A DNA stretch of 32,805 bases from the NCBI GenBank assembly GCA_034716895.1, contig JAYEKW010000156.1, positions 1 to 32,805 on the forward strand. Reading direction: 5' to 3'. The notes under the pieces were generated by a model, which saw only the letters and a program-made list of their open reading frames with translations, was not told the origin of the DNA and did no database searches. The DNA comes from Candidatus Neomarinimicrobiota bacterium (GTDB taxonomy: Bacteria; Fidelibacterota; UBA8477; JABMPR01). Both the position numbers and the translations under genes were made by a program. Numbering within the stretch: the stretch's first letter is position 1; each line of letters opens with the position of its first letter. Below are positions 2,186 through 31,773 of this stretch, one piece after another.

Positions 2186-4519
2186 TCAATAATTAGTCCG
2201 CCATTCGCCATCCTGATAATATTGAATTGGGTTAAGCAGACTCTCAATTGAATCTGCTGAGAAATCCGTGTAAATTGATTTTCCATGATAGGCGTAGTAA
2301 GCATCTGTGGTTATATCAGGGATGCTGGAATTGACTAATTTAAAGTTCTCATTTAGTGTGTAAATAGCATATTGACGCGAGCTAGCATTCCCCACGTAAA
2401 TTTTATACAAATTATTTGACTCGATAGTTACGCTGTACACAGTAAAATGAGCACTTCTTTTCTCCAAAGGAATCCATGACAGTGAAGGGAATCGCAAATA
2501 ATACATATGTTCAGCAATTTTTTTTTCGTTCATGGAAGAATACCTATGAGTTAAAGGATCACTTCCACTTAAATTTTCTCCGGATATGACGCCCACTACT
2601 GGCTCCCTGTCAAACCCATTATGTGTACCCGCAAAGATAATCTCCTTAAATGAATCCCCATCGACGTCATGAAATTGAATCGTATTAAAATGGCCAGCAT
2701 GTGTGTACTCTTGCACATTCTCCCCATTTAAATTCAACTTTGTGAGCACAGCTGGGAAGTATTGCCAATGTTTTTGACCTACCACGATTGAATATTGCTG
2801 ATCCTTGCCCTTCAGAAAGGCTAGTGATATTATGTTATATGGTGGTTCATATGTATACGGCCCAAACTTTATTGCATGGTTCACATTCTTTTCCCATTTG
2901 ATTTTTCCTTTATTGTCAATGAGACTGACTAACCCAGATAATGGAATTTCTCTAGTTTCAACCGCGAACAAAACTTCATTTAGTCCATCGCCATCAATAT
3001 CTTGAACGTCAAAATGAATTTCCTTATCAAAATTTTCAGTAAGTTCTCTATCTGTGGAGCCCAATAGTTCATCGCTAAACATTTGATGGTACCAAAGGGC
3101 TTTCCCGCTACTATTCCTTGCAACAACCGAGACACCTTCGATTGTTAAATTAACCGGATTCAAATCCCGCGTAAACCACCAACTCCCCCACCCAATCCCT
3201 GCGATTAACAGTATAGCTGCCGCATACCTCATGACCTGATTACGGCGGATGTGGGCTTGGGACCACTGCTTGAGAGTGATGATTTGTTTTTGGGTGACAC
3301 GTTGAGAGGTTAGGAGGTTTGAGAGTTCCGTCTCCGCCAGGCTACACCGTGACAAGTGGGAGGTTTGGAGGTTTGGGGGTTGGGATGTTTGAATGTCTGA
3401 ACCCTGAGTTCCCGGAGGGAGTATCGAAGGGTGAGTTCCCGTAGGGAGTATGGAAGGGCGGTCCCTGAGGTCACTCGAAGGGTGGTCCCTGAGGTCACTC
3501 GAAGGGTGGTCCCTGAGGTCACTCGAAGGGTGGGTTTCTGAGTTGATGTCGAGAGTTTCACTATTGGGGGTGGTGACTGAGGATCGAGATCCTTCGTTGC
3601 TCTCAGGATGACTAATTGTGGATAATTTATTTAAGGAAACTTTAATGACATCAGAATTGATTTCCGGATGAACAAAGATCTGAAAGGGAGAACAATAAAA
3701 AGCCTCAATCTTAGCAGGTAAACTCTGCTCAGAAACACCCCTGACCTGGCCATTGACATCAATCCCACCTGTAATGACTGCATTTTGGCTAATTTGATGC
3801 TGGGTGCGTTGAATGGTTGCCTTTTCCATCTGAGCTAACACTGCCAGGCTCATCCCCAAACCAAATGATTCACCTGTGTAGAAATACTCTTTATCAGCGA
3901 ATCCAAACATGACTCGAAATTTTGGAATGTTGCCTGTCCTGCGAATCTTTAACTGCTTTTTAGCAGCACCCACTGCATCCAGAGCCTGATTGTAAAAAGG
4001 GTCACCCATATTGACAGGATAATTGTTGAAGAGAATCAAGTCGTTATCAGCATCACTCCGACGCAGCTCGACCTGAACGGTCAAAGGCTGAATCGTAGCA
4101 TTCCGGATAAGTCCAAACCCCTGGGTCTGTTCCTGCTCCACGAGGGGGATCCATACAGTATCACTGGAAAAACCACTCGTTCCACCCTGTTCTTCTTGAG
4201 ATTTGCCTGATACTTGATTGCTCTCAATTTCAATACCCGTATCCTCCATCATCTGGAGGTAATGCTGCAATCGGTCTAGAAACTCATTGGAGCGAAACTT
4301 CAGCACATCTACTTGGAGAAGTTCAGGGATCTGCTCCTGGACCTCCTGAAAATATGAATAGAAGCGATGGGGTGATGATTGTTGGTCAATCATGCTTAAA
4401 AAGCTGTAGAGGATGCTAAGTTTAAGCCTGGCAGATATCCCACTGCTAAGATAATACTGTAATTCCTTGAATTTCTCCTCGATCTCGCGGAGTGGAATAT
4501 TCTGATTCATCTCACCCAA
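2186..4519 (-). CDS. Membrane-anchored Lon-like (S16) protease-domain protein with C-terminal FG-GAP-like domain
   Basis: A 777-residue protein with no AAA+ module. Residues 1-100 look helical. Residues about 120-290 resemble the Lon proteolytic domain: the nucleophile region TGESFGLGMSLAVL has Ser218, and ITGGIDVNGQVRG followed by LPAKIEAF places Lys270 where Lon has its catalytic Lys, so both dyad residues seem to be present. Residues 300-410 are a low-complexity linker built from DNA repeats. One transmembrane helix (about 432-449, AAAILLIAGIGWGSWWF) follows a basic stretch (HIRRNQVMR), which predicts a cytoplasmic N-terminus and a periplasmic C-terminus. The C-terminal 330 residues contain DIDGDGLNEVLFA and DVDGDSFKEIIFA, which are FG-GAP-like. 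The start overlaps the upstream zinc-finger gene by 8 bp, so the two are probably translationally coupled. Activity and substrate are unknown. Confidence 0.8.
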   Translation of the reverse strand: MGEMNQNIPLREIEEKFKELQYYLSSGISARLKLSILYSFLSMIDQQSSPHRFYSYFQEVQEQIPELLQVDVLKFRSNEFLDRLQHYLQMMEDTGIEIESNQVSGKSQEEQGGTSGFSSDTVWIPLVEQEQTQGFGLIRNATIQPLTVQVELRRSDADNDLILFNNYPVNMGDPFYNQALDAVGAAKKQLKIRRTGNIPKFRVMFGFADKEYFYTGESFGLGMSLAVLAQMEKATIQRTQHQISQNAVITGGIDVNGQVRGVSEQSLPAKIEAFYCSPFQIFVHPEINSDVIKVSLNKLSTISHPESNEGSRSSVTTPNSETLDINSETHPSSDLRDHPSSDLRDHPSSDLRDRPSILPTGTHPSILPPGTQGSDIQTSQPPNLQTSHLSRCSLAETELSNLLTSQRVTQKQIITLKQWSQAHIRRNQVMRYAAAILLIAGIGWGSWWFTRDLNPVNLTIEGVSVVARNSSGKALWYHQMFSDELLGSTDRELTENFDKEIHFDVQDIDGDGLNEVLFAVETREIPLSGLVSLIDNKGKIKWEKNVNHAIKFGPYTYEPPYNIISLAFLKGKDQQYSIVVGQKHWQYFPAVLTKLNLNGENVQEYTHAGHFNTIQFHDVDGDSFKEIIFAGTHNGFDREPVVGVISGENLSGSDPLTHRYSSMNEKKIAEHMYYLRFPSLSWIPLEKRSAHFTVYSVTIESNNLYKIYVGNASSRQYAIYTLNENFKLVNSSIPDITTDAYYAYHGKSIYTDFSADSIESLLNPIQYYQDGEWRTNY
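3405..3458. repeat. Two tandem 27-bp repeats inside the Lon-like gene
   Basis: Copies at 3405-3431 and 3432-3458 (TGAGTTCCCGKAGGGAGTAT followed by SGAAGGG) differ at two positions. The length is a multiple of three, so the frame is kept. They encode the PSILPTGTH / PSILPPGTQ part of the linker. The 24-bp array begins one base after the second copy. Confidence 0.85.
3460..3531. repeat. Three perfect tandem 24-bp repeats inside the Lon-like gene
   Basis: The unit GGTCCCTGAGGTCACTCGAA + GGGT occurs without mismatch at 3460-3483, 3484-3507 and 3508-3531. It encodes SSDLRDHP repeated in the Lon-like protein. The core CCTGAGGTCACTCGAAGG is the same kind of CCTGAG...CGAAGG element found between genes at 5625 and 32688, so a normally intergenic repeat is being translated here. 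Confidence 0.9.
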
Positions 4520-5393: not shown

Positions 5394-5445
5394 TGTTGAT
5401 GCCTAGATTATCAATACCAAGGTTGAGGAGTATATCTCTTAGAGA

Positions 5446-5464
5446 GACAAGGCAGTGCCTTGTC
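5446..5464. repeat. Perfect GACAAGGCA palindrome, partial second copy at 5538-5550
   Basis: GACAAGGCA-G-TGCCTTGTC is a perfect 9+1+9 palindrome. GCAGTGCCTTGTC recurs at 5538-5550 with a degenerate left arm (GAGTCAAAGCA), so there are two copies about 86 bp apart. They lie 50-160 bp upstream of the zinc-finger gene. They look like a dispersed palindromic element rather than an operator, although an operator cannot be excluded. Confidence 0.7.
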
Positions 5465-5643
5465 GTTACAATGTTTACCACTCTATTGATCTTCATTGCG
5501 TTCTATGCCTCGGTGCAGGATCAGATAGAGAGTCAAAGCAGTGCCTTGTCTTTACCATATGACTTCTGCCTGTTATACTTATCATCAACCTATAAAAAAC
5601 TCTGCGCCATTTTGACAGGTGGTTCCTGAGCTTAGCCGAAGGG

Positions 5644-5698
5644 CTCAATGCAACGCTCTGCGTGCTCTGACTGCCCCGATTGTAACATCGGGGCGAGA
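5644..5698. repeat. Dispersed hairpin element, copy A
   Basis: The left part at 5644-5676 matches 16803-16835 almost base for base (shared core CAACGCTCTGCG). It continues into a perfect 8-bp stem, GCCCCGAT-TGTAAC-ATCGGGGC (5673-5694), and ends in GGGCGAGA, as copy B does. The hairpin arms differ between copies. The element lies 19 bp after the stop of the putative sigma gene and has no T-run, so it is not a classical intrinsic terminator. Confidence 0.7.
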
Positions 5699-5716
5699 TA
5701 TATTTTCTTATTGCCA

Positions 5717-6826
5717 TCATTGATCCTCTATCCTCATTGGCTCAGTATTCGGAAAATCGTGTTCATATTGATGTTGCAGCTCTTTTTTACCCAGCTTGAT
5801 CAGGTATTCCAGACGGCCTCGGTGAATTTTCCATATCGCCGATTTCATTTCACTAAATCCGGAGTTGACCTTGTATTCCGGCAGTTTTCCAGCGTAGCCA
5901 TCCATGAGCAGATCTTCAAAGTATTGATCAAGAATCTCAGTATAAATGTTTGCCTCATTTTGATCTATTTTGGATTTCTCAACAAAACGCTGGTTTATCT
6001 CATAGCGGAAGAAGGTTTTTATGCGGTCCGTATAAACCTCCTGATCTGTTTGGGATATTTCATAATTCTCAGAGTTTTCTAGAGTTGAACCAGCATATTC
6101 AGTTTCAAAGGATAAGGTTTTAAGACCCATGAGGTATTTCAATAATTTGTAAAGATCACTACGAGATATAAAGTGCCGATGATCGTCTTCTTGTTTTAGT
6201 TCGCTCAAAAAATCTCGCACAATACCAGGGAGTGTGTCATGGTCTTTTCTGCTATTTTCAAGCATGAATAAAGCATTGTCCCAAACTATCTCTGGTTTTG
6301 ATGGGTTAAAATCGTCAGGAAATACTGTTTTACCAGATTCATTTTGTAGATAGAAATAATCTTCATCCCAATGCTTAGCCAATTTGATTTCCGGATCTCG
6401 CTTATGAACCAATGACAGATTGCGATATATCCGGGCACCAGATGGATCATTTTGCTGAAATGCTCTAGCCAGGGACTGTTTGGTATGGGCCACAACCAGC
6501 CGTCTGGTCATGAATAGGGCTTCATCCTCATCAGCCTTGATTTGATCCTGAAGGGGCTCAAAATATTGGATCAGTTTATAAAATATGCCCTTGTCATCCC
6601 GGGCAAACAACTCGGCAATTGAATCCAGCGCAAGCTGCTGCATCTTAGCTTCATCAGCTCTATCATATTCAGAACCCAGCTTGCCTGCTTTTCTCCTGGA
6701 GAATAGATAAGCTGTTGATAGTGATGCACAGTACCGGATATAGAGATTCAGTTCTGATTGTGATAGATCAGATTTCAAGATTTTTAGAATTAAACGTAGG
6801 AGTTGGTTCGTGTTCAGCACCCGCAA
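5717..6826 (-). CDS. Putative highly divergent sigma factor-like protein
   Basis: A 369-residue soluble protein with no family I can name firmly. The N-terminal 80 residues are helical and contain DEAKMQQLALDSIAELFARD, which resembles sigma region 2 (the DLAQDAI..LF pattern). A middle block VHKRDP follows SLARAFQQNDPSGARIYRNL. The C-terminal FSEMKSAIWKIHRGRLEYL looks like a helix-turn-helix followed by a basic helix, as in sigma region 4. Two genes downstream are a ZAS-type zinc-finger protein and a Lon-like membrane protein, which fits a regulatory role. The reading frame opens with TTG directly after the TGA stop of the upstream ATPase and in the same frame; GTG two codons later is an alternative start. 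The sigma assignment is inference, with roughly even odds. Confidence 0.55.
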   Translation of the reverse strand: MRVLNTNQLLRLILKILKSDLSQSELNLYIRYCASLSTAYLFSRRKAGKLGSEYDRADEAKMQQLALDSIAELFARDDKGIFYKLIQYFEPLQDQIKADEDEALFMTRRLVVAHTKQSLARAFQQNDPSGARIYRNLSLVHKRDPEIKLAKHWDEDYFYLQNESGKTVFPDDFNPSKPEIVWDNALFMLENSRKDHDTLPGIVRDFLSELKQEDDHRHFISRSDLYKLLKYLMGLKTLSFETEYAGSTLENSENYEISQTDQEVYTDRIKTFFRYEINQRFVEKSKIDQNEANIYTEILDQYFEDLLMDGYAGKLPEYKVNSGFSEMKSAIWKIHRGRLEYLIKLGKKELQHQYEHDFPNTEPMRIEDQ

Positions 6827-15354: not shown

Positions 15355-16617
15355 TCAGCCTTCCACGCCAAAGAGTTCAAAAAGTGCTTCTGCCAGATAA
15401 TGACTACCAAAAAAACAGATCGCCTGATCATCGCTATTGCGTAATTTGAGTGCACTCACATAAGCTTTTTTCGGATCGGGATGGATCAGTGCCGGGGCAA
15501 CTCCCAACTTGATCAGCTCATCGGCTCCCACAGCTGAATGTCCTTTAAAAGCGGTAAACAATACTGGTCCTGTCCAACTTTCAAGGAGCTTCAGCAATTC
15601 TACAATATTCTTTCGGGCATTAAATGCGGCAATTAATATGGAACTTCCCAGGGCTGCTTGTCTAAGTGATTCCAGCAAACGATCCAAACCCTCTCGATTA
15701 TGGGCCACATCATAGAGCACCAGAGGCTGAATCTGCAGAGACTGAATCCGACCATGCCATTGCAGATCATCCAATCCCATTTGGATTTTTTTCGAATTCA
15801 GGTCAAACCCTAGCTGAAGCAAAGTGACCAGCACATTGCTGAAATTCTCAGCCTGGTGTAAGCCCAGCAACGAGAGCGTGGACTCAATCGTTTGACCAGC
15901 CAGGGAGATCTTGACGCTTTGTGAGGTTCCTTTAACGGTAAGTTTTTTAATTTTAGCTACATCAGGCACATAATTATAGGATGCGTTTTTTTTCCGGCTT
16001 GCGGTTTCCATGATCCGGCGAACGGTGGGCGAATTCTTACCCAGGATCAGGGGTCTTTCCCGTTTTATGATTCCTGCTTTTTCAGCGGCGATCAACTCGA
16101 TAGTGTCCCCCAGGATATTCTCATGATCCATGGATATTGCTGTAATAATACTCACCACTGGATCCACTACATTTGTAGCATCAAGCCGTCCCCCAAGTCC
16201 AGTCTCAAAGACCGCGTAGTCCACCCTTTGCTCATTGAAATAGACCATCCCCAAGGCTGTCAACACTTCAAAGAAAGTGATCCCCAGAGCATCAATGTGA
16301 GGACGCCATGCTTCAACTTTCTCGATAATAAATGCATCGGGAACGAGGGTGTCTCCGATCCTGATGCGTTCATTTGGTTTTACCAGGTGCGGTGATGTAA
16401 ATAGTCCCGTTTTCAGCCCGTAGGAATTCAGAATGGATGCCAGCATGGCTGCCGTAGAACCCTTACCATTGGTCCCTGCAATATGAATGACCGGGTAACC
16501 TGCGGTTGGTTTCCCCAGAATCTCCATAAAGCGCTCTACTCTGGATAACTCCAGCTTAACCCCGGGAAAGGTTAGCCCGAAGATGTAGTCAAAAATCGAT
16601 TGAGTATCAGAACTCAT
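15355..16617 (-). CDS. folC: Bifunctional dihydrofolate / folylpolyglutamate synthase
   Basis: 420 residues from ATG 16617, which has GGA five bases upstream; a TTG three codons earlier is possible. The Mur-ligase type P-loop is HIAGTNGKGSTAAML. FETGLGGRLDATNVV and ISMDHENILGDT are FolC signatures, and DVAHNREGLDRLLESL begins the C-terminal domain. It adds glutamate to dihydropteroate and to reduced folates in the cytoplasm. It stands between murI and rho on the same strand but is separated from murI by 516 bp of repeat-rich DNA, so it probably has its own promoter there. Confidence 0.95.
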   Translation of the reverse strand: MSSDTQSIFDYIFGLTFPGVKLELSRVERFMEILGKPTAGYPVIHIAGTNGKGSTAAMLASILNSYGLKTGLFTSPHLVKPNERIRIGDTLVPDAFIIEKVEAWRPHIDALGITFFEVLTALGMVYFNEQRVDYAVFETGLGGRLDATNVVDPVVSIITAISMDHENILGDTIELIAAEKAGIIKRERPLILGKNSPTVRRIMETASRKKNASYNYVPDVAKIKKLTVKGTSQSVKISLAGQTIESTLSLLGLHQAENFSNVLVTLLQLGFDLNSKKIQMGLDDLQWHGRIQSLQIQPLVLYDVAHNREGLDRLLESLRQAALGSSILIAAFNARKNIVELLKLLESWTGPVLFTAFKGHSAVGADELIKLGVAPALIHPDPKKAYVSALKLRNSDDQAICFFGSHYLAEALFELFGVEG

Positions 16618-16637
16618 AGTTTCCAAGATATCATTCT

Positions 16638-16670: not shown

Positions 16671-16802
16671 GTTTCAGTGTTGACGAAACCGCAAAAAGTA
16701 TCTGAGAATTCATAAAATGTGCCCTAAAACCATTAAATACAACCGCATATAGTGAATAAGCTTAAAACCATATATATCAACACATCGCGTCATTTCGATG
16801 AA

Positions 16803-16863
16803 CTCAATACAACGCTCTGCGCGCTCTGCCTGCCCGCACGAAGTTATACGCAGGCGGGCGAGA
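16803..16863. repeat. Dispersed hairpin element, copy B
   Basis: The left part 16803-16835 matches 5644-5676 with few differences. It runs into the stem GCCCGC (16832-16837) / GCGGGC (16854-16859) and ends GGGCGAGA, as copy A does. The stem and loop sequences are different from copy A, so the ends are conserved while the hairpin is not. It is preceded by GCGTCATTTCGATGA, itself like a dispersed intergenic motif. Confidence 0.7.
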
Positions 16864-16927
16864 GGGACTTTTTGCGAGGGCGTCAGTGTTAAATGGCACA
16901 TAAAAGAGAATATTATCCATTTCAGTT

Positions 16928-17133: not shown

Positions 17134-17967
17134 CTATTTGTAGGCTTCCAGCACTTCCAACTCGATCTTAAATAGATTTTCCAATGGCCGACCCAGGAAA
17201 CGTGAGGCAGTTTCTTCAAATTTTTGGGGGAAATCAGATACATAAAACTTGTGTTTACCCGGATCAATCCTTTCAGAATTCAACAGCTCCATCTCAGCCA
17301 ACACACGCTGTACTTCAGCAGCAGTTTCCTCACCGGAATCTACCAGCTGGACATCGTCTCCAATAACTTCCTGGATGGCAACTTTCAGATAGGGATAATG
17401 GGTGCAACCCAGGATCAAAGAATCTGGTTTATCATTTTCAAAGGTTTTCAAATAGCGTTGGATCACTTGTTTAACCACGCTATCATTGAGCCAGTTCTCT
17501 TCAACCAGCGGCACCAGTAATGGACATGACTGATCAGCTACCTGTACTTCCGGGTCGATTTCCCGGATCGCTGATCGATAGGCTCCTGAGCGGATCGTTG
17601 CTGAGGTTCCAATCACCCCGATTCGTTTATTTGGTGCAAACTTGACAGCAGCTTTCGAACCAGGTTCAATCACACCCACGATGGGAATATCAAAACTCTG
17701 TTTCAGGGAATCCAGAGCAACGGCAGAAGCAGTATTACATGCCACCACGATCATTTTGACCTGTTGCTCCAACATAAATGATGAGATCTGATGCGAAAAC
17801 CGGATGACTGTATCTTTTGATTTAGAGCCATAGGGAACTCGTGCTGTATCACCAAAATAGATCAGATGTTCATGGGGCAATAGATCGACCAATGCTCGCA
17901 CGACTGATATTCCCCCCAGACCTGAATCAAATATTCCAATAGCTTGTTCAGGATTTAGATTTTTCAT
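17134..17967 (-). CDS. murI: Glutamate racemase
   Basis: 277 residues, full length. It makes D-glutamate for peptidoglycan in the cytoplasm. FDSGLGGISV holds Asp14 and Ser15; the two catalytic cysteines are Cys77 (VVACNTAS) and Cys188 (LGCTHYPYLK), with His190 after it. IYFGDTARVPYG is also typical. Its ATG overlaps the TGA of the amidase gene (ATGA, 17964-17967), so the two are coupled, which links precursor synthesis and wall cleavage in one transcript. Confidence 0.97.
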   Translation of the reverse strand: MKNLNPEQAIGIFDSGLGGISVVRALVDLLPHEHLIYFGDTARVPYGSKSKDTVIRFSHQISSFMLEQQVKMIVVACNTASAVALDSLKQSFDIPIVGVIEPGSKAAVKFAPNKRIGVIGTSATIRSGAYRSAIREIDPEVQVADQSCPLLVPLVEENWLNDSVVKQVIQRYLKTFENDKPDSLILGCTHYPYLKVAIQEVIGDDVQLVDSGEETAAEVQRVLAEMELLNSERIDPGKHKFYVSDFPQKFEETASRFLGRPLENLFKIELEVLEAYK

Positions 17968-31645: not shown

Positions 31646-31773
31646 GTTGAAAGCTTGCCAGAGCATAGCCAATAGGCGAAGCCTGGTTGAAAGCTTGCCA
31701 GGGCGTAGCCGATAGGCGAAGCCTGGTAGAAAGCTTGCCAGGGCGTAGCCGATAGGCGAAGCCTGGTTGAAAG
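31646..31773. repeat. Three tandem 40-bp repeats plus a partial fourth
   Basis: Units at 31646-31685, 31686-31725 and 31726-31765 begin GTTGAAAGCTTGCCAG (GTAGAAAG in the third) and end GGCGAAGCCTG; an 8-bp fourth start follows. Copies 2 and 3 differ by one base, and copy 1 by three. Each unit has imperfect dyad symmetry (CCAGG...CCTGG). They begin 9 bp after the trmO stop. Units are contiguous, so this is not a CRISPR array. Confidence 0.9.

Follow-up and report, generated by a model that had tools for sequence, protein, structure and literature searches.

Alternative short modules at the centre of a MITE family in a Candidatus Neomarinimicrobiota genome

The closest known parallel to the elements described here is formed by the small dispersed repeats (SDRs) of Nostoc and its relatives, reportedly set out by Elhai et al. 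in 2008 (Genome Res. 18:1484) as units of 21-27 nt that often lie within mini-transposons or arrays of short tandem repeats and can be nested in each other. SDRs with compensatory changes in the predicted hairpin are also said to exist. Among bacterial MITEs, PMC3733652 names Nezha, RUP, ERIC and NEMIS, and it marks the REP super-families by a tag, GTAG or CGTC, that adjoins the palindrome. The BOX elements of streptococci are described in PMC3049150 as MITE-like repeats built of modules, the middle one of which may be absent or vary in number. A literature search, mostly among journals free of subscription, returned no paper on the Marinimicrobia MITE family reported here.

The window is the whole 32,805-nt stretch that was analysed, contig JAYEKW010000156.1 (C156) of a 3.45-Mb genome in 258 contigs. 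An earlier note had picked out two copies of a dispersed element in it, near 5.6 kb and 16.8 kb, with common ends and different hairpins that both pair. This much holds. A repeat search pairs 5637-5676 with 16796-16835 (40 nt, 85% identity), both copies read GGGCGAGA after the hairpin, and the stem-loops differ while both still pair, folding better than shuffles clearly in the 5.6 kb copy (z -3.4 to -4.0) and only modestly in the 16.8 kb copy (z -1.3 to -2.3). Within the window alone, the three matches to the 12-mer at two or fewer mismatches are not significant, being reached by 16 of 100 shuffles; genome-wide, the common word CAACGCTCTGCG occurs at 37 exact places and at 56 with up to one mismatch, as compared with two for the reversed pattern. 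Searches of the window returned no known RNA family from Rfam at gathering thresholds and no tRNA. A protein with ion-channel and TrkA domains is also encoded in the window.

The limits drawn in the earlier note were too tight for both copies. The 16.8 kb copy is an element of 203 bp, bounded by inverted ends and by a duplicated target (Table 1), and it stands between a Mur-ligase-like gene (15355-16626) and an Asp/Glu racemase-like gene (17134-17967). At 5.6 kb the full stretch listed in the table aligns to the same MITE family; with the element in L011 as partner the local score is 155, and none of 258 background stretches scores above 29. The tail of the 5.6 kb copy past the hairpin aligns no better than background, so this is a decayed copy without recognisable ends. 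Just upstream of it, a 33-nt repeat (5440-5472 and 5526-5558, 88% alike) stands around the palindrome GACAAGGCAGTGCCTTGTC.

Table 1. Position and basis of the mobile-element features in the window
Feature	Position	Strand	Sequence	Basis or remark
Left copy of 6-bp target-site duplication	16676..16681	+	AGTGTT	Read directly
Intact MITE, 203 bp	16682..16884	+		Flanked on both sides by AGTGTT
Left terminal inverted repeat	16682..16699	+	GACGAAACCGCAAAAAGT	End pattern GACGNNNNCGCAAAAAGT
Module X, 24 bp	16792..16815	+	ATTTCGATGAACTCAATACAACGC	Borders GCGTC and TCTGCG
Module A, 30-bp imperfect palindrome	16829..16858	+	CCTGCCCGCACGAAGTTATACGCAGGCGGG	Borders CTCTG and CGAGAGG
Right terminal inverted repeat	16867..16884	-	GACGCCCTCGCAAAAAGT	End-pattern search
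Right copy of duplication	16885..16890	+	AGTGTT	Read directly
Decayed copy, same MITE family	5549..5706	+		Nearest L011; no recognisable ends; local alignment
X composite, 48 bp	5609..5656	+		X unit split by inverted related 24-mer at 5620-5643
Hairpin D, 24 bp	5670..5693	+	ACTGCCCCGATTGTAACATCGGGG	Between TCTG and CGAGA, the point of A/B in other copies

The carrier is a MITE, as evidenced by its inverted ends, a duplication of constant length and a short non-coding body. Exact matches to the 18-bp end pattern GACGNNNNCGCAAAAAGT number 73 in the genome, as against none for its reversed control. Of 68 end pairs, 66 remain after removal of repeats and of pairs shorter than 120 bp, and 60 after removal of six nested or false pairs. 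The 60 elements measure 132-271 bp, the longest containing N, and carry no transposase gene of their own. Three of the 60 rebuilt elements lack a readable flank; in the other 57, exact 6-bp flank duplications stand right at the ends of 40, 7-bp duplications in five more, and neither in 12. Shuffled flanks give a mean of only 2.1 exact 6-bp duplications, with a maximum of eight in 5000 shuffles. The preferred target is AANNTT, and the elements are intergenic in position, with one of 52 lying in an ORF of 150 aa or more as compared with 1346 of 2219 random positions. The MITE ends are present in six of 60 genomes, this one included, all belonging to one genus. A second MITE-like family was noticed at L212 (3433 onward), L219 (1453 onward), L213 and L113, with ends GATGG[C/T]GTCGCAAAAAGT and GACGATCCA[A/G]TAAAAA and, by eye, inverted stretches in the centre; its copy at L213 is incomplete, and its member at L113 bears module A, described below.

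A candidate for the enzyme that moves this MITE was found in a sister species. A DDE_Tnp_1 search of the genus gave 45 matches, and among the 30 loci examined for MITE ends one, L247 in genome G014, has 18-bp matching ends around the gene: a 536-aa transposase ORF lies between GACGCCCCCGTAAAAAGT and GACGCCCTCGTAAAAAGT, 1906 bp apart. At L233 and L252 the MITE ends adjoin the transposase match rather than enclose it. The L247 protein, a DDE transposase, contains Pfam domains DUF772 and DDE_Tnp_1_6, both over their cut-offs. Its best NCBIfam model is IS1182, at 167.7 bits under a cut-off of 270, and with the domains over and this score under their thresholds we call the protein IS1182-like only. 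The flanks of the L247 element, AATCTT and AAATTT, agree at four of six bases and form no exact duplication. In the genome of the window, the L247 protein has no match at E 1e-5, and the end pattern at two or fewer mismatches occurs at no fewer than 167 places (control 42); among the matches listed and in ten regions inspected, there is no pair of ends at the distance expected of an autonomous IS copy. The MITE is presumably moved in trans by an IS1182-like transposase of this kind.

The centre of the MITE is built of CTYTGCG-like octamers, and at one fixed point of the core, between CTYTG and CGAGAGG, an element holds module A, module B or neither. For these counts and for the tree below, one copy containing N (L098) was excluded. 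A (30 bp) occupies the point in 27 of the 59 elements and B (33 bp) in nine, with 23 holding neither. A third unit, X (24 bp), is present in 34 of the 59 at an adjoining fixed point, between GCGTC and TCTGCG, and in five the left body contains another 24-bp unit. Once the units are removed, the core measures exactly 149 bp in 40 of the 59 elements. A tandem repeat of three 40-bp units, each with GGCGTAGCC/GGCGAAGCC arms, was also noticed at 31646-31773 of the window, between two ORFs; the words GCGAAGC and GCGTAG of this repeat recur in module B and in 33-mers of genome G016.

In the case of the two window copies, the intact one holds X and A, and the decayed one holds an X composite and hairpin D. 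The difference between their hairpins, on which the earlier note had dwelt, thus arises because a recent copy has A and an old, decayed copy has D at the same point. D is a single-copy sequence, with no other occurrence in the genome at three or fewer mismatches. D and A share CTGCCC close to their start and GGGCGAGA as their last part, and D may be a much-changed A or a separate unit. The inner 24-mer of the composite is related to X as judged by eye, and similar composites occur in L011 and L111. A 24-bp tandem repeat at 3453-3533, by eye of X type, lies in frame in a 777-aa ORF (2186-4519, minus strand), where it reads as HPSSDLRD repeats; units of this type seem to have found their way into coding DNA. 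By eye, a row of several X-type 24-mers also stands at L165 of genome G001, where L165 and L149 carry a different hairpin, TAGAAGATCCCGACAATCGTGTCGGGG, a few bases from the A/B point of MITE-like copies.

The most likely explanation, and one that we consider probable, is that two layers of mobile DNA are superimposed, a MITE and the very small modules exchanged at its centre. In the first layer, a non-autonomous MITE with a 149-bp core, 18-bp ends and a 6-bp AANNTT duplication would be transposed in trans by an IS1182-like DDE transposase. In the second, X, A and B would settle at fixed points of the octamer-like centre, and the A/B/empty state would turn over largely independently of the backbone, with A also occurring away from recognisable MITEs between the same TYTG and CG borders. 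The exchange of modules could proceed either by movement of the units, via RNA or a single-stranded DNA hairpin, or by short-tract copying. A search limited to Y1 enzymes found none that would serve the modules.

Evidence for the second layer comes in part from where A is found. It occurs in four of 245 genomes of the phylum, all of one genus in which 15 other genomes are without it, with 44 places in this genome (39 of them exact), 16 in G014 and three each in G016 and G017; exact copies make up 15 of the 16 in G014, one of the three in G016 and none of the three in G017. The 66 places, 44 here and 22 in relatives, yield 61 distinct contexts that were read; in 43 of them the right end of a MITE can be recognised, and in the other 18 it cannot. 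Like an SDR, then, A is a unit of 20-30 nt found in different contexts. Its borders are constant, as TYTG precedes it in 58 of the 61 contexts and CG follows it in all 61. Six of the 18 contexts without the MITE end are copies of one other repeat, and one (L183) resembles a MITE that has lost its end. A repeat that reads CTCTGCGTCYTGGCGGCTCTG..CGAGAGG also carries A at its CTYTG^CG point and was seen in four copies at L186, two at L175 and a looser one at L187. In G014, A stands at the same MITE site and the same backbone is also found without it; the MITE bodies of that species average 70-74% identity to those of the present genome (6 versus 55 bodies), yet A is letter-identical. In G016, 30- and 33-mers of related but not identical sequence stand at the A/B point, along with many copies that have none.

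The comparison of modules with backbones gives a similar picture. Among the 27 A-bearing elements, the mean p-distance is 0.007 (0.7%) for A as opposed to 0.29 (29%) for the backbones, which diverge by 17-43% across 30-nt windows. To illustrate, three backbones are identical, and one of them has A while two do not. On a tree of the 59 backbones, the A/B/empty state requires 21 changes, whereas shuffled states require 25.3 on average and as few in eight of 200 cases, which makes the states slightly clustered. The tree is poorly resolved, few of its forks being supported; its starred branches alone force seven changes for A, five for empty and three for B. Linkage was examined after exclusion of clusters with fewer than four rows, which left 49 rows at 0.10 clustering and 53 at 0.20. 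At 0.10 (49 rows), the left body of the MITE is linked to its right end (p 0.001), but the A/B/empty state is linked neither to the left body (p 0.15) nor to the right end (p 0.25); with coarser clusters its link to the left body becomes borderline (p 0.0485). For X, presence or absence shows a link to the left body at p 0.007 (0.0005 when the clusters are coarser) and a weak one to the A/B/empty state (p 0.04 and 0.08). Taken together, the linkage, tree and distance results make the turnover of A and B clear and show X to be more heritable. The A/B state is younger than the backbones and largely independent of them.

How the modules are exchanged is a narrower question. Gene conversion or other homologous recombination among MITE copies, and among the octamer arrays that these have in common with other repeats, may have copied A and B between backbones, and this is a serious contender, although we would stop short of calling it probable. 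It is not exclusive of the two-layer explanation, which leaves both routes in place. The A/B/empty state is linked to the six bases at 7-12 beyond the right border of the module (p 0.0015), which is the pattern that gene conversion would give, and CGAG follows A in 56 of the 61 contexts, the MITE-like CGAG being kept by 13 of the 18 that lack the MITE end. Conversion would account for both. Octamer-like words also stand to the left of A in most contexts, and the 44 places of A provide many donors. Five contexts (L188, L191, L194, L199 and L204), however, diverge from the MITE directly past CG, and a converted tract would need to end at the same base in each of them; moreover, the two sides of the MITE, its left body and its right end, stay linked although the middle between them is swapped. 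Alternatively, A may itself be a mobile element of only 30 bp, inserting with precision at TYTG^CG, travelling on MITEs but also leaving them, having crossed between species and giving way at the same point to other units, namely B here and the related 30- and 33-mers in G016. We advance this version tentatively, as nearly as likely as conversion. It would explain the constant borders as well as the five contexts that diverge directly past CG.

Outside the two-layer explanation, the hairpins could have been selected as RNA structures, such as 3' UTR stabilisers or terminators, whose pairing is kept while the sequence changes. The earlier note had offered selection for structure as one of its two suggestions and had proposed a covariance test, the outcome of which is modest. 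The 13 distinct 30-mers, taken with their flanks, pair in 88.5% of cells and show two-sided changes at three of 12 pairs, one of them in the flanks, with a covariation score reached by one of 500 shuffles. For the eight distinct 33-mers, 96.4% of cells pair and two-sided changes occur at two of 14 pairs, which 56 of 500 shuffles match, while the covariation score is reached by 27 of 500. Few independent events lie behind these changes in either set, and with related rows and structures drawn from the very sets that they were used to judge, the covariation lends modest support. Also in keeping with selection on RNA, the 5.6 kb hairpin is perfect inside an otherwise decayed copy and stands 22 bases past the stop codon of a minus-strand ORF (5717-6826). 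Nevertheless, the 39 identical copies of A are alike in sequence and not only in pairing, and 23 of the 59 elements hold neither A nor B. A and D beat shuffled sequences in folding energy, but B and six of the seven other 33-mers (seven of the eight distinct 33-mers), together with the three distinct 30-mers from MITE sites of G016, fold no better than shuffles. Selection for structure in pure form was rejected on the folding of 23 module sequences with flanks, all distinct: for 11 of them, 15 or fewer of 300 shuffles fold equally well on at least one strand, and seven of these 11 are A itself or variants of it, from this genome and from G017. We therefore consider selection on RNA structure unlikely as the general explanation. 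Given that A is mostly exact and the 5.6 kb hairpin single-copy, the hairpins do not look like a single stem drifting under compensation. Hairpin exchange between repeat copies can arise by the turnover of modules, as under the two-layer explanation, and not by selection for pairing.

The other suggestion of the earlier note was a mobile palindrome family similar to REP elements; in the form considered here, a REP-associated tyrosine transposase would move it. Mobility and dispersal are borne out, and short imperfect palindromes in many intergenic copies, in a genome with two partial Y1 transposase genes, would suit such an origin. The carrier, however, has the 18-bp inverted repeats and the 6-bp duplications of a MITE, and no tag of the GTAG or CGTC kind described in PMC3733652 accompanies the modules, A having TYTG and CG as its neighbours instead. 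The search for a REP-associated transposase that the note had called for led, in this genome, only to the two partial Y1 genes, which are adjoined by other hairpins, with no A, B or X at four or fewer mismatches at either locus, one of which is cut by a contig end. A REP/RAYT origin was rejected on these grounds, both Y1 genes of the genome being partial and neither flanked by A, B or X, and we regard it as very improbable. The two genes (L210, which begins at a contig end, and L211) are of IS200 type and are probably remnants of a separate element.

The weakest alternative, in which a repeated element was wrongly joined during short-read assembly and the mixtures are chimeras, draws on the fragmentation of the genome into 258 contigs, on several copies at contig ends and on N runs in some, but it can be set aside as most improbable, because exact 6- or 7-bp duplications, which chimeras would break, span 20 of 25 A-bearing, nine of nine B-bearing and 15 of 22 module-free elements, and because the same pattern recurs in separate genomes.

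Set beside described systems, the carrier resembles Nezha, RUP, ERIC and NEMIS, as named in PMC3733652, in being short and non-coding with inverted ends. It shares with known MITEs the target duplication, the intergenic site and ends in common with a transposase-bearing element; it differs in its 6-bp AANNTT duplications and in the alternative modules at its centre, and we found no family name for it. BOX elements also vary in the middle, but boxB varies as copies inside BOX (PMC3049150), whereas A is found in other contexts as well, with constant borders. REP and REPIN sequences, with their RAYTs, are similar in having short palindromes in many intergenic copies (PMC3733652, PMC3116915); the present elements differ in having no REP tag, no linked Y1 gene in the genome and a MITE carrier with duplications.

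The nearest likeness remains that to the Nostoc SDRs, and it is one of description: both comprise gene-less units of 20-30 nt. To our knowledge, the module sequences themselves differ from those of the Nostoc SDRs, and the spread of gene-less 20-30 bp sequences with exact borders is known to us mainly from the SDRs of cyanobacteria. The present modules belong to another phylum, and one of them, A, keeps exactly the same letters from one species to another in carriers that differ. The carrier, a candidate for the enzyme that moves it, a backbone found both with and without the module, and a short target are all available, which makes the movement of a 30-bp unit directly testable. Should A prove to be a mobile unit, it would be among the smallest in DNA and would provide a second, phylogenetically remote case beside the SDRs of Nostoc.
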